Source: Methanolobus sp.
GTDB taxonomy: Archaea > Halobacteriota > Methanosarcinia > Methanosarcinales > Methanosarcinaceae
DNA length: 47,943 nucleotides
NCBI GenBank assembly: GCA_030154025.1
Contig: JASKKT010000013.1
Coordinates: 1-47,943, forward strand
Direction: 5' to 3'
The position numbers were made by a program, and so were the translations under genes. This document shows positions 11,441-17,248 of the stretch, in pieces. The notes beneath the pieces were generated by a model. The model was not told the DNA's origin, ran no database searches, and saw only the letters and a program-made list of their open reading frames with translations. Positions within the stretch are counted from its first letter, which is position 1; every line of letters begins with the position of its first letter.

Positions 11441-11753
11441 GATTAGGATAGTTTCCGCGTACTATAATATTATTGTGGCCCATATTATTATTGGCCCGGC
11501 AGGTGCCTGTTTTTTTCAGATGTGATTTTCAAACAGGAGTTATAAACTTAATTTAATTTCCTTTTTACTGACGGATTTTGATTTAATCTCGTCAGGCGCG
11601 TTTATTTGAAAGCTAGTAAAGTGTACTTTACTAATCCTAAAGTTCTTTTTTTAAAAACTCTTATATAGGAACTTTGATTACATATATCAATTATAAATAC
11701 GGCTTCTATGTGTAGTTCTACAGAAGCCTCATGTGATAAAAGAGGTTGTAGTT
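11441..11753. promoter_or_regulatory. Divergent control region between nurA and the symporter gene
   Basis: No gene is seen here. On the minus strand a TATA-like ATAATATTATAG (near 11461-11472) is close enough to nurA for a leaderless start. On the plus strand TTATATAGGA (11661-11670) and TTATAAATAC (11691-11700) are candidate TATA boxes for the symporter. A palindrome and a T-run (11509-11517) are also present. Confidence 0.5.
11614..11633. promoter_or_regulatory. 20-bp palindrome, operator candidate
   Basis: Perfect 9-bp inverted repeat around a GT centre (left arm TAGTAAAGT, right arm ACTTTACTA), 28 bases upstream of the TTATATAGGA TATA-like element of the symporter gene. Spacing and symmetry suit a dimeric HTH activator or repressor. 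No regulator gene is adjacent. Confidence 0.45.
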
Positions 11754-13691
11754 ATGCAGAATTATCAGATATTCCTTGTATTGATGGCCGTCTACCTGAT
11801 CGGGTTGATATCCATCGGACTGTACTTCTCGAAAAAACAAAAGTCTGTCACTGACTTCTGGCTTGCCGGACGCAGGATAGGATCTATGGCTATTGGTTTT
11901 TCAGCGGCCTCCTCATGGATGACTGCCGGTGGGATACTTGCTGTTATCGGTCTTTACATTGTGCTGGGTATGAGTTCCATCTGGAGCTTTGTGGCTCCGA
12001 ACATCCTGGCATTGTTGCTTATTGCCCTTCTTGTGGGTAAGATCAAGCACCTGCCTGCTATCACCCAGCCGGAACTGCTTGAACAGCGGTACAGCAGTAC
12101 ACTGCGCGGCCCTGTCGCATTCATCATTGCTATTGTTATGATCCTATTCGCAGTTGCAGATATCAGGGGCCTCTCACTTGTCCTGGAGATATTCTTTGGC
12201 CTGCCTCCCATCTATGCTGCAGCAATAGTGGCTATTGCTATCTCCCTGTATGTGACCCTGGGAGGCTTTTCAGCTGTGGTCTGGACAGATATGGTCCAGT
12301 TCGTCCTGCTGTCTGTGTTTGCTCTTGCCATGGCCTTCGTTGTTGTCAGTGCAGCCACGGCAGGCACAGCGGAGATACCGGCGATTAGTGCATCCGAGCT
12401 CCTTGGGAACGTTTCTACTGACTGGTGGAACCCATTCATAATCGGCATACCTGCTGTCATGATTTTCATCTTTGCCATTATACCAGGCTGGGTGACCGAG
12501 CAGGACCCGTGGCAGAGGATATGGGCCTCCAGGGACGAGAAGTCTGCACGCAATGGTATGATCCTGGGTTCCTTCCTCATTTTCCTGGTATTTGGCGTGG
12601 CATGTACACTTATAGCCATCGGACTCAGCTATCTTTATCCTGGTATCCCTGCCTCCTTTGCAGAGATCGGTATGGGTGCCATGGCACAGGCTGAGCCGGC
12701 GCTGCTGTTCTTCGTAGTCGAGAACCTGTCACCTCTTGCACTTGGCCTGGCCGGTGTCGGGCTTGCAGCAGCTGCAATGTCCTCCGCAGATACCTTTGCA
12801 ACGTCAGGCGGTTCATGCCTTTCACGCGACATCTACCAGAGGTACATAAAACCTGATGCAACAATGAAAGAAATGATGGCTGTCAACAGGGTAAGTGTGC
12901 TGATTATAGTGCTGGCTGCAACTTTCCTCTCTTTCTATATCACAGGGATCATAGAAGCTATCCACATTGCAACTTTCATTGCCAGCGCATCCTACTTCTT
13001 CCCGCTCATGGGTGGCCTCTACTGGAAGCGTGCAACAAAGGAAGGCGCTCTGGCAGGACTTGTAGTAGGAGCTGTGGCACAGATATCGTTCACTATAATA
13101 GACTACTCAAGCACTCCCCTGCAAGCCATCGGCTTCCTCGCACCTATCAGCCCCCTGCTCTCAAACCACGGTGTTATCCTTGGTATGTTTCTCAGCGGTG
13201 TGGCCTTCTTCGGTGTATCACTGGCAACAAAGCCTTCCAGCCTTGTGAACCTGGCACCGTTCTTTGCGGACGAGGCAGAAAAGCTGGTGAAAGAAGATAT
13301 AATCGTGCAGGACTCTGACACCCAGTACAAGAAGCTCCTTGGAAGCCTTGACAAGGAAATAACCGGTGACCGTGCCAGCCTCAAGCTGAACCTGGAAGCG
13401 TCTGCAACCGTCAACTGGGACAGGTTCATAAATGAGCTCAAGTCCATCCACCCTTCCTGGGTTACACCGACCGGTGTCAATTCCGTGTACTGGCTGACAA
13501 AAGGCGACATGCTTGCATGTGTTTCCCTGAGCCGCGGACATACTGAGAAAGAGATCTGGTTCTCTTCCGAGCCAAGGACCAAAGATGTGGAAGAGGCTTC
13601 AAAGGAATTCTTCACGGCCTTTAAGCAGGTTTCTCAGGCTCTTGATAATATAGGCATCATGCTGGCACTTCCGGCACCCCAGCAAGCCTGA
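11754..13691 (+). CDS. Sodium:solute symporter (SSS family) with C-terminal soluble extension
   Basis: 645 residues from the ATG at 11754 (GAGGTT box 6 bases upstream; a GTG seven codons earlier is unlikely). About 13 hydrophobic segments span residues 1-500, with the SSS hallmarks FWLAGRRIGS near TM1-2, GGFSAVVWTDMVQF and AAMSSADTFATSGGSCLSRDIYQRY. This is the LeuT-like fold of PutP/PanF relatives that imports small solutes with Na+. Residues about 510-645 form a soluble region with DSDTQYKKLLGSLDKEI and a mixed alpha/beta tail that PutP lacks. Substrate cannot be read from sequence; an amino acid or a methylated amine/betaine are possible. Single gene with its own terminator. Confidence 0.88.
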   Translation: MQNYQIFLVLMAVYLIGLISIGLYFSKKQKSVTDFWLAGRRIGSMAIGFSAASSWMTAGGILAVIGLYIVLGMSSIWSFVAPNILALLLIALLVGKIKHLPAITQPELLEQRYSSTLRGPVAFIIAIVMILFAVADIRGLSLVLEIFFGLPPIYAAAIVAIAISLYVTLGGFSAVVWTDMVQFVLLSVFALAMAFVVVSAATAGTAEIPAISASELLGNVSTDWWNPFIIGIPAVMIFIFAIIPGWVTEQDPWQRIWASRDEKSARNGMILGSFLIFLVFGVACTLIAIGLSYLYPGIPASFAEIGMGAMAQAEPALLFFVVENLSPLALGLAGVGLAAAAMSSADTFATSGGSCLSRDIYQRYIKPDATMKEMMAVNRVSVLIIVLAATFLSFYITGIIEAIHIATFIASASYFFPLMGGLYWKRATKEGALAGLVVGAVAQISFTIIDYSSTPLQAIGFLAPISPLLSNHGVILGMFLSGVAFFGVSLATKPSSLVNLAPFFADEAEKLVKEDIIVQDSDTQYKKLLGSLDKEITGDRASLKLNLEASATVNWDRFINELKSIHPSWVTPTGVNSVYWLTKGDMLACVSLSRGHTEKEIWFSSEPRTKDVEEASKEFFTAFKQVSQALDNIGIMLALPAPQQA

Positions 13692-14196: not shown

Positions 14197-15231
14197 ATGA
14201 CAGGGATACTTTTTGATGATATCGGCAGCTTCCCCCTTCCTCCGGGCAGGTCCAGGGAATGGATGAAGGAGGGCTTCTCCAGGGGAAAGAATGACAGGGA
14301 ACTGTTCACAGTAATAAGCGATGCTTTCAGGCAGAAGATGGAAGCAGGTGTGGATGTGCCCACCTATCCCCAGTACCAGGACATGAACGAGCAGTTCCTG
14401 TCCATTATAAGTGATCCGGCAAGATCGGAGGAGCCTTTCAAGGTGAAGCAGGATGCTGCCCGGATAATGGAACTCGAGGTCATCGAGGAGCTTGCCGGAG
14501 AGTACAGGGGGGAACATGGAAAGAAGCCGGATGTGCGTGTCTGTGTCACAGGCCCCCTGGAACTGTATCTCAAGGAGTTCGGAGGCACCGAATATACGGA
14601 TATCCTTAACCTGCTTGCAGAGAGCGTGGACCGCTTTGTCAGTAATTCCCTCTCCAATGCACGTAATTTCAATATAAGGACAGTTTCCATAGATGAGCCC
14701 AGCATCGGCATCAACCCCCAGGTGATGTTCGATAACAACGAGCTTATACACGCAATGGATGCTGCCTGCAGGTCAGCAAAGAAGGCCGGGTGTGATGTGG
14801 AGATACACCTGCACTCGCCCCTGCATTATACCCTGGCATGCCAGGCCCGCAATATAGGGGTCGTAGGTGTGGAATCGGCAGCCACTCCATCGTACCTTGA
14901 ACTGATAGACCGCAAGGAGCTTGAGGACAGTGACACCTTCCTGCGTGTCGGAATAGCCCGCACGGATATTTTCAACCTCGTGGCTGTGCTCAATGAAAAA
15001 TACAACACCAACGTCTGGAAGGACCAGACCCATATGCAGGATATCCTTGCACAGATGGAGACCCCGGAGATAATCGCAAAGAGGCTCCAGAAAGCATATT
15101 CAATCTTTGGGGAATGTATCAGGTACGCAGGTCCCGACTGCGGCCTCGGCTCATGGCCGTCCCAGGAGATGGCGTCACAACTGCTGAGGAATGTGGCAGC
15201 AGGCATGGCTGAGTTCAGGAAAGGTATGTAA
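14197..15231 (+). CDS. Core methionine synthase (MetE C-terminal-domain type, folate-independent)
   Basis: 344 residues covering only the catalytic barrel of MetE. Homocysteine-site motifs are visible: GSFPLP at the N-terminus, CVTGPLEL, and VSIDEPSIG (D166-E167). Zinc ligands by position are H204, E226 and C315 (GPDCGLGSWP); the position two after the first His is H206 rather than the usual Cys (HLH instead of HxC). The absence of the folate-binding N-terminal half means the methyl donor is probably a methyl-corrinoid protein, as for the archaeal core enzymes called MesA-C. It would make methionine from homocysteine in the cytoplasm. A uroporphyrinogen-decarboxylase-like methyltransferase is the alternative. 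A TATA-like element 30 bases upstream predicts a leaderless mRNA. Confidence 0.8.
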   Translation: MTGILFDDIGSFPLPPGRSREWMKEGFSRGKNDRELFTVISDAFRQKMEAGVDVPTYPQYQDMNEQFLSIISDPARSEEPFKVKQDAARIMELEVIEELAGEYRGEHGKKPDVRVCVTGPLELYLKEFGGTEYTDILNLLAESVDRFVSNSLSNARNFNIRTVSIDEPSIGINPQVMFDNNELIHAMDAACRSAKKAGCDVEIHLHSPLHYTLACQARNIGVVGVESAATPSYLELIDRKELEDSDTFLRVGIARTDIFNLVAVLNEKYNTNVWKDQTHMQDILAQMETPEIIAKRLQKAYSIFGECIRYAGPDCGLGSWPSQEMASQLLRNVAAGMAEFRKGM

Positions 15232-15275: not shown

Positions 15276-17207
15276 TTACTGTTTATAGGAACCTGTGCCT
15301 GTCCAGTTTCCATCCATATCCGTGTAGGTGATTCCATTTACGATCACAGAATCAATGGTGAAGGTAAATGTCAGGGTGGTCCCACTCTTGTACTTCACCG
15401 AATCTGAAACCACAGTAGCCGTTCCGTCAATGCCTGTCGTTGCAGTATCTTTGTCACTTGTCGCAACGCTCCAGCGTCCGCTGACCAGTGCACCTGAAAC
15501 GGGCGAGCTGCCGGAACTCACATTGGCTGTCGCTTCCCCTCTCACGAATACATTCTTTCCTGCAGTTTTGGTTTCAGTTATCACAGTCACATCAACTTCA
15601 ATCGGCTGGAGTGTTGGGCGTTCAATGATGTTGATTGTTCCTGTGGAAGTGCCTGTTTCCCCTGAGGTGTCAGTGACTGTCAGGGTTACTGAATATGTTT
15701 TGGCTGTGTCGTAAGAGTACGTGACTATTTCAGTATTTGCATCTTCAATGTTATCGCCGTTAAAGTCCCATGAATATGTCAAGATGTCTCCGTCAGGATC
15801 CGTGGAACCTGAAGCATCAAAAGTAACGATGTCACCCACATATGCACTTGAAGGCATGTCAATCACTGCTACAGGTGCCTGGTTTCCTGCCTGTTCAAAA
15901 TATTTCAGGGCAGCATATGCGTCCACAATCCCATATCCAGAACCTGCATCCCATCCTTCTGCGTAGATGTCCCTTGCACTATCCTGGATTGCAGCTCTCA
16001 CATTATCCGGCCCAGTGACCCCGTTTGCTATGAGAAGGGCTGCGACACCTGCCACATGTGGCGTTGCCATGGATGTACCTTGGTAGAAGTAATATCCGAA
16101 GTTTGTGGGTCTGACACTGAAGGTTTGCTGCAGGATGCCATCCACATACCCGTCGCCATTCTGGTCAATAGTGGTGTCGCCGCCAGGTGCCATTATATCA
16201 AGGGCACTGCCATAATTGGAGTAGTATGCACGGGTCCCGTCGTACCTGGTCGCGCCAACGGCTATACAGTTCTCATAGGCTGCAGGATAACAGACGGTTC
16301 CCAGACCATCATTTCCGGCGGCAGCTACAATTGTAACTCCCTTTCCGTATGCATAATTGATCGCATCTTCCAGTCCGTCAGGATTCACCCCGGGAGCAAA
16401 ACTGAGGCTCATACTGATCACATCTGCATCATTGTCGGCAGCATAGGTAATCCCATCAATAAGGTATTGCAGGGTTCCGCTTCCCCTCTTGTTGAGAACC
16501 TTTACAGGCATCAAAGTACATTCATAGGCAATCCCGGCCACGCCAATCCCGTTATCGGTGGACTGAGCTATCGTACCGGCCACATGTGTACCATGCCCGT
16601 GGTCATCGTTTGCATGAGGGTCGTTATTAACGAAATCCCATCCTGCTTTAAAAGAGGTTCCTGCAAGGTCCGGAGCAAGCGCGTAAGTACCATAGTTCTC
16701 GTATGCTATTCCTGTATCCAAGACAGCCACAATAACTCTCTGGCCTGTTGAGATATCCCAGGCACGTGTAAGATTGATGCCATGTCCTGAGTGGAAGTTC
16801 CACTGGTATGCGTAATAAGGATCATTGGGAACCATAGCTGCGTGCATAATGTAATTTGGCACGGCATACTCCACGTTGGGGTTCTTGCTGTAGATCTCCA
16901 CCATCTCTTCCACTGGCTTTGTCTTCGGAATGTTCAGTTTCCTGAAGCCTGCATAGGGACTTGTGTAAGCCACTGAAGTGCCGTGCTTTGAATTCAGGGC
17001 CGAGATCTTTGCCTCGGACATCCCGGGACTGAACTTTACCAGTATCTCCCCGGGCACATATGCCTGTCCTTTGTCCAGGCCGGGAGTCTGAGACTGGACA
17101 TCACTGTCAACGCCATAGATCTGCGGCCCCACTCCAAGAGCAGGTATCATTGTTCCTGCGATCAGCATGCTGACCGCTAAAAGCTTAAGAAGTGTTTTTA
17201 CGATCAT
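15276..17207 (-). CDS. Exported subtilisin-like (S8) serine protease with PKD and C-terminal beta domain
   Basis: 643 residues from the ATG at 17207, which has GGGTGG just upstream. Order: signal peptide (about 1-30); fervidolysin-type propeptide (GEILVKFSPG to VEYAVPNY, about 50-120); S8 catalytic domain with D164 (VLDTGI), H205 (HGTHVAG), oxyanion N299 (AAAGNDG) and S379 (GTSMATPHVAG); a PKD domain (about 440-527; FDASGSTDPDGD and YSWDFNGDN); and a Thr/Ser-rich Ig-like domain at the C-terminus (about 535-643). There is no PGF-CTERM or membrane anchor at the end, so it is probably secreted. All catalytic residues are present. It stands alone with its own TATA box. Confidence 0.93.
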   Translation of the reverse strand: MIVKTLLKLLAVSMLIAGTMIPALGVGPQIYGVDSDVQSQTPGLDKGQAYVPGEILVKFSPGMSEAKISALNSKHGTSVAYTSPYAGFRKLNIPKTKPVEEMVEIYSKNPNVEYAVPNYIMHAAMVPNDPYYAYQWNFHSGHGINLTRAWDISTGQRVIVAVLDTGIAYENYGTYALAPDLAGTSFKAGWDFVNNDPHANDDHGHGTHVAGTIAQSTDNGIGVAGIAYECTLMPVKVLNKRGSGTLQYLIDGITYAADNDADVISMSLSFAPGVNPDGLEDAINYAYGKGVTIVAAAGNDGLGTVCYPAAYENCIAVGATRYDGTRAYYSNYGSALDIMAPGGDTTIDQNGDGYVDGILQQTFSVRPTNFGYYFYQGTSMATPHVAGVAALLIANGVTGPDNVRAAIQDSARDIYAEGWDAGSGYGIVDAYAALKYFEQAGNQAPVAVIDMPSSAYVGDIVTFDASGSTDPDGDILTYSWDFNGDNIEDANTEIVTYSYDTAKTYSVTLTVTDTSGETGTSTGTINIIERPTLQPIEVDVTVITETKTAGKNVFVRGEATANVSSGSSPVSGALVSGRWSVATSDKDTATTGIDGTATVVSDSVKYKSGTTLTFTFTIDSVIVNGITYTDMDGNWTGTGSYKQ

Positions 17208-17248
17208 ATCAACCACCCGTTTGATACTAATCTATGTGTTGTACAAGC

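Follow-up and report, generated by a model that had tools for sequence, protein, structure and literature searches.

A MesC-type core methionine synthase with His-x-His at the predicted zinc site in a Methanolobus-like genome

The sections of Price et al. 2021 (PMC7857596) drawn on here define four families of core methionine synthase, one of which, MesC, is exemplified by the Methanosarcina acetivorans protein MA_0053 (Q8TUL3). As set out there, residues 204, 206, 225 and 314 of this protein are predicted to bind zinc and residues 11, 59 and 166 to bind homocysteine, with His found in place of Cys643 in most MesC proteins and Tyr in two Methanosarcina copies, and a corrinoid iron-sulfur protein of the CdhDE type is predicted to be the methyl donor. 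The portions of the literature covered by our search (PMC7857596, PMC7005905 and PMC13059711 among them) contain no assay of any MesC protein.

Here, we analyse a gene of this family at 14197-15231 of the window, by which we mean the whole 47,943-nucleotide stretch of DNA studied, from a genome with Methanolobus relatives. The gene and the codons of its predicted active site are as follows.

14197..15231, + strand: MesC-type core methionine synthase (P0001), 344 aa, ATG start
14227..14229, + strand: S11 codon, predicted homocysteine carboxyl contact (MetE Ser433), aligned with the MetE Ser; role as given in the cited sections of Price et al. 2021 (PMC7857596)
14371..14373, + strand: Q59 codon, predicted contact to the homocysteine amino group (position of MetE Glu484; MesA and MesC have Gln); role from the same sections (PMC7857596)
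14692..14694, + strand: D166 codon, predicted homocysteine amino contact (MetE Asp599), aligned with the MetE Asp
14806..14814, + strand: H204-L205-H206 codons (cac ctg cac), HxH standing for MetE HxC, predicted zinc ligands; register H204 = His618 and H206 = Cys620 of T. maritima MetE
14872..14874, + strand: E226 codon, predicted zinc ligand (MetE Glu642 in T. maritima, Glu665 in E. coli), opposite the MetE Glu in 8 of 8 MAFFT runs
15139..15141, + strand: C315 codon, predicted zinc ligand (MetE Cys704 in T. maritima, Cys726 in E. coli), in a PDCG motif common to MetE

The encoded protein is an ordinary member of the published MesC family. It matches the NCBIfam methionine synthase model NF004712 (PRK06052.1) with a score of 541.7 bits (cut-off 387) over residues 1-342 of 344, and it agrees with MA_0053, as described in the sections cited, in length and in S11, Q59, D166, the HxH motif and the zinc Glu and Cys, with E226 and C315 offset by one residue, after the HxH motif, from positions 225 and 314 of the M. 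acetivorans protein. The original prediction had placed H204-L-H206, E226 and C315 at the MetE HxC, Glu and Cys positions and had described the folate domain as missing; the translation bears out the residues and their coordinates, and the whole 344-aa protein forms one barrel in the AlphaFold2 model, leaving no folate barrel. A Pfam scan of the protein gave no domain at E≤0.001, and thus neither PF01717 nor PF02574. The protein accordingly falls outside three related groups, namely MetE, which has two barrels and is marked by an N-terminal folate barrel, MesA, which is marked by HxC and PF01717 (here HxH, with Pfam silent at E≤0.001), and MetH, whose PF02574 homocysteine domain is found in neither the protein nor the genome. 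Its placement in MesC draws on the full-length NF004712 match, the zinc and homocysteine residues, the presence of an acetyl-CoA-pathway corrinoid protein in an anaerobic archaeon and a separate clade. Compared with published MesC we see no notable difference, and the gene adds to the family one new member sequence, taken from a Methanolobus-like organism's genome.

The full-length model (pLDDT 91.3) has the fold of the MetE C-terminal barrel. Its top structural match is the MesD structure 3RPD (Z 26.3, rmsd 3.1 Å, 290 residues aligned), and T. maritima MetE with zinc and homocysteine bound (1XDJ) matches at Z 26.2 (rmsd 2.9, 291 aligned); the likeness to the MetE C-terminal barrel (1XDJ, 1U1H) and to MesD covers both the fold (Z about 25-26) and the layout of the zinc and homocysteine residues. 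Unlike this protein, MetE has a further N-terminal barrel, and the protein departs from MetE in having His for the first zinc Cys, Gln for Glu484 and a predicted corrinoid donor. With MesA, the PF01717 core synthases of methanogens, it shares the single barrel, the Gln at the Glu484 position and the zinc Glu and Cys, but it differs in having HxH for HxC and in occupying a separate tree branch. At the level of fold, it also resembles uroporphyrinogen decarboxylase and the Methanosarcina mazei methyltransferase 4AY7, which are TIM barrels that match at Z 18-20 (20.2 for the first uroporphyrinogen decarboxylase row), below MetE and MesD. Sequence searches of the PDB gave no match at E≤0.01 by direct phmmer and a best E of 0.01 with a profile.

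Judging from the sequences of its relatives, the HxH motif is not a chance feature of this gene. From 250 BLAST hits, removal of 35 identical sequences left 215 distinct MesC sequences, in which H204, Q59, D166 and E226 are invariant (each 215/215), C315 is present in all 213 that reach it (the other two being truncated) and S11 in all 214 (one truncated), while position 206 is occupied by His (206 sequences) or Tyr (9). The loci of 119 of these sequences, from 113 of the 181 MesC genomes described below, were found by the family model or by place, and they read HLHEC (108), HMHEC (1), HLYEC (7) and HVYEC (2), with one truncated; the remaining 96 are biased, because the second peptide pattern of their search contained HLH. 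The motif is moreover a known family signature, published and family-wide, as Price et al. 2021 (PMC7857596) give His for Cys643 in most MesC in the sections cited. The proposal that His had replaced the zinc Cys stands in so far as H206 lies at the Cys position in structural comparison, but not as a peculiarity of this gene, the family rule having been in print since 2021. The nine Tyr-bearing copies (L185-L191, L193, L194) come from nine Methanosarcina-type genomes of genera g6 and g7 and represent one paralogue, about 46-48% identical to the protein studied here; L185 and L190, both read full-length, differ further by DEI in place of DEP and NPDCG in place of GPDCG. Gene surroundings vary among the nine.

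The genome is 99.77% complete and holds one MesC copy. A canonical MetE or MetH paralogue was sought in it and none was found: PF01717 (MetE-type) gave nothing over its cut-off and a single sub-threshold match at 14.3 bits, and PF02574 (MetH-type) gave no match, these two models being the scope of the searches, with MesB (DET0516 type) outside it and very divergent forms invisible to PF01717, since that model misses MesC itself. Across 392 genomes of the phylum, MesC (counted at E≤1e-10, weaker matches excluded) occurs in 181 and PF01717 synthases in 195, with both in 8 and neither in 24, so that the two are nearly mutually exclusive. Five of the genomes with both belong to family f8 (G141, G146, G178, G301, G306), and their PF01717 proteins look like split MetE; the other three belong to f9 (G113, G142, G194), and theirs show HVC, with Asn in place of the Asp predicted to contact homocysteine. 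The present genome resembles other MesC genomes in its Methanosarcinales lineage, in yielding no other synthase type and in carrying CdhDE. The family model, the fold, the active-site residues, this phyletic pattern and the lack of any other tested synthase in the genome thus support the earlier reading of the protein as a core methionine synthase of MesC-like type that draws on a corrinoid donor.

We consider it very probable that this gene is the MesC of its genome and that it acts by zinc-thiolate methylation of homocysteine, its likely function being to convert homocysteine to methionine with the methyl group supplied by a corrinoid protein. Homocysteine would be bound at the mouth of the single MetE-type TIM barrel by S11, Q59 and D166, and its thiol would be activated as a thiolate of a zinc ion putatively held by H204, H206, E226 and C315; as H206 stands for Cys, the zinc sphere would comprise two His, one Glu and one Cys, as against one His, one Glu and two Cys. 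Methionine would then form by attack of the thiolate on the methyl group carried by a second, methyl-corrinoid protein, for which the corrinoid iron-sulfur protein of the acetyl-CoA pathway, CdhD/CdhE, is the likeliest candidate. The genome has two CdhD-family genes (on C15), and it also has one MtrA and nine B12-binding domains, which fits the possible, if less probable, case that MtrA or a methylotrophic corrinoid protein serves in place of CdhDE, with the chemistry otherwise unchanged. Four of the 181 MesC genomes have no CdhD-family match (G231, 99% complete, and G229, G262 and G282, 78-80%), which also favours such a donor; the match is present in the other 177, which speaks for CdhDE, except that this co-occurrence follows lineage and so is not independent evidence on the donor, and a CdhDE-type protein is the donor predicted in the cited sections of Price et al. 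2021 (PMC7857596).

The neighbours of mesC fit a role in amino-acid metabolism, and none of them names the donor. Two lie upstream in the window.

11733..13691, + strand: sodium:solute symporter (SSF), PF00474 at 121.3 bits
13859..14170, + strand: 103-aa ORF next upstream of mesC (gap of 26 bases), unmatched in Pfam and NCBIfam at E≤0.001

The symporter lies upstream of MesC in 7 related loci, where it is 72-97% identical, and the fast-evolving 103-aa ORF has BLAST hits upstream of MesC in same-genus loci and in L039; both are kept in close relatives only, and neither was retained as a functional partner. A subtilase with a PKD domain (PF00082, PF18911) at 15276-17216 on the - strand is convergent with mesC. 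Further afield, in family f5, mesC is immediately preceded by a threonine synthase gene (PF14821, PF00291) in all 10 genomes read out of the 14 that have MesC (threonine synthase-mesC loci L046, L047, L072, L157, L168, L181, L182, L202-L204 and L212), and in f8, where 46 genomes have MesC, it is immediately followed, and often overlapped, by a MarC membrane protein gene in 27 of the 28 genomes read (L048-L051 and others), the 28th being cut by a contig end; both counts were made by hand. No CdhDE gene was recognised beside mesC in the flanks examined, in which part of the ORFs were run against Pfam. ORFs of about 210 aa that follow mesC in several distant loci were considered as dedicated corrinoid proteins and discarded, being MarC, HAD hydrolase and amino-acid-kinase-like proteins by Pfam or by eye, and an RNA switch upstream of mesC was likewise set aside, an Rfam scan of the window at the gathering score giving one tRNA only.

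The part played by H206 depends on how the motif is registered against MetE: the string is IHTHMC in A. thaliana MetE, IHAHMC in T. maritima MetE and IHLHSP in MesC. MetE IH(A/T)HMC can be paired with the MesC string as IHxH, and hhalign against MetE-type profiles and seven of eight MAFFT runs do so, placing H206 opposite the MetE zinc His and the Cys onto P208; the sole run to put H204 on the zinc His was that with a raised gap penalty, and the runs included two wrong-frame MesA ORFs (L230, L243), chosen by length. On such a register, which we regard as distinctly unlikely, H206 would correspond to MetE His641 and P208 to the Cys position, zinc would be bound by H206, E226 and C315, perhaps with water or H204, and the Cys ligand would have been lost rather than swapped. 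Because the sequence aligners pair H206, not H204, with the zinc His, residues 199-344 were predicted alone (pLDDT 91.8) and structurally aligned. Residue 1 of this fragment pairs with residue 613 of T. maritima MetE in 6 of 6 rows among the matches listed, with 642 of the A. thaliana enzyme and with 652 in four C. albicans rows (C-terminal barrel), three further C. albicans rows and one S. mutans row being unused as they matched the other barrel. A gapless reading gives H204 = His618 and H206 = Cys620 in T. maritima, both described as zinc ligands in the part of PMC539065 cited, and, by the printed sequence, H204 = H647 and H206 = C649 in A. thaliana; this register is read from a predicted model by taking the residue pair at which each row begins and supposing eight residues to align gap-free, and the structural Z values of the fragment are modest (5-9). 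A Foldseek search with the same fragment returned nothing at E≤0.001, with MetE and MesD rows heading its list. Two sequence comparisons also weigh against H206 as the counterpart of the zinc His: a relative with HPH, described below, aligns unambiguously with MesA HxC when the correct-frame L230 and L243 rows are used, and its His pair falls on H204/H206 in the MesC profile, and outside one paralogue H206 is invariant to the same degree as H204. The modelled alignment thus upholds the published assignment of H204 to the His and H206 to the Cys position, with no zinc Cys elsewhere in the motif in this register, and it disfavours the suggestion, made beforehand, that H206 is not a ligand.

That the gene is instead a paralogue methylating another thiol, as had also been raised, is highly improbable and finds no support in the genome, for while HxH in place of HxC, the purely predicted function of the family and the divergent MesC copies of Methanosarcina-type genomes would suit a new substrate, MesC is single-copy here with no second synthase among the types tested, the homocysteine-contact residues are invariant and threonine synthase adjoins mesC in f5.

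A His pair at the zinc motif is also found outside MesC. The archaeal genus g21 (family f6) has a MesA-like PF01717 protein with H-P-H exactly at HxC in 6/6 full-length copies from six genomes (L248-L253, for example P0002 at G021:C34:80918-81865), a seventh copy being truncated before the motif. Among MesA, MesB and MesD, the cited sections of Price et al. 2021 (PMC7857596) give zinc-motif exceptions for MesB only, from which we take the HPH group to be absent from that paper, the one used for comparison. Identity of the HPH protein to the MesA proteins compared does not exceed 42-44%, and its genomes encode another PF01717 protein, which lacks the zinc residues. The call for a phylogeny is answered by a tree of 76 rows, which leaves out two fragments, one near-copy (L249) and eight rows that either lack the zinc motif or belong to the partner domain of split MetE: MesC (29 rows) forms a clade apart from MesA and split MetE on a branch supported at 100/100, and HPH falls within MesA at 98/92. 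An AU test did not reject the grouping of HPH with MesC (p 0.46, a difference of 0.79 log units). Five HPH rows score 60.6-68.3 bits against the MesC profile and the rest at most 43.2, apart from the HxC MesA row L256 at 63.4, on account of which this score fails to single out HPH. With the tree placing HPH in MesA and the AU test at p 0.46 for HPH with MesC, we do not treat it as a proven link to MesC; it is possibly one between MesA and MesC. A broader and rather doubtful idea is that His for the first zinc Cys constitutes a zinc-site type of its own, which would have arisen in the MesA/MesC line once, with HPH as a surviving link, or twice, and which may adapt the activation of the thiol to corrinoid donors; the HxY paralogue of Methanosarcina could have gone beyond this, to a different donor or substrate.

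In this archaeon, as in many of its methane-cycling relatives, no type of methionine synthase was detected other than MesC, the function of which is predicted. For bioinorganic chemistry, the exchange of Cys for His at the zinc site of a thiol-activating enzyme poses a plain question, and the single-copy gene described here is a cleaner test case for it than the multi-copy genes of Methanosarcina.
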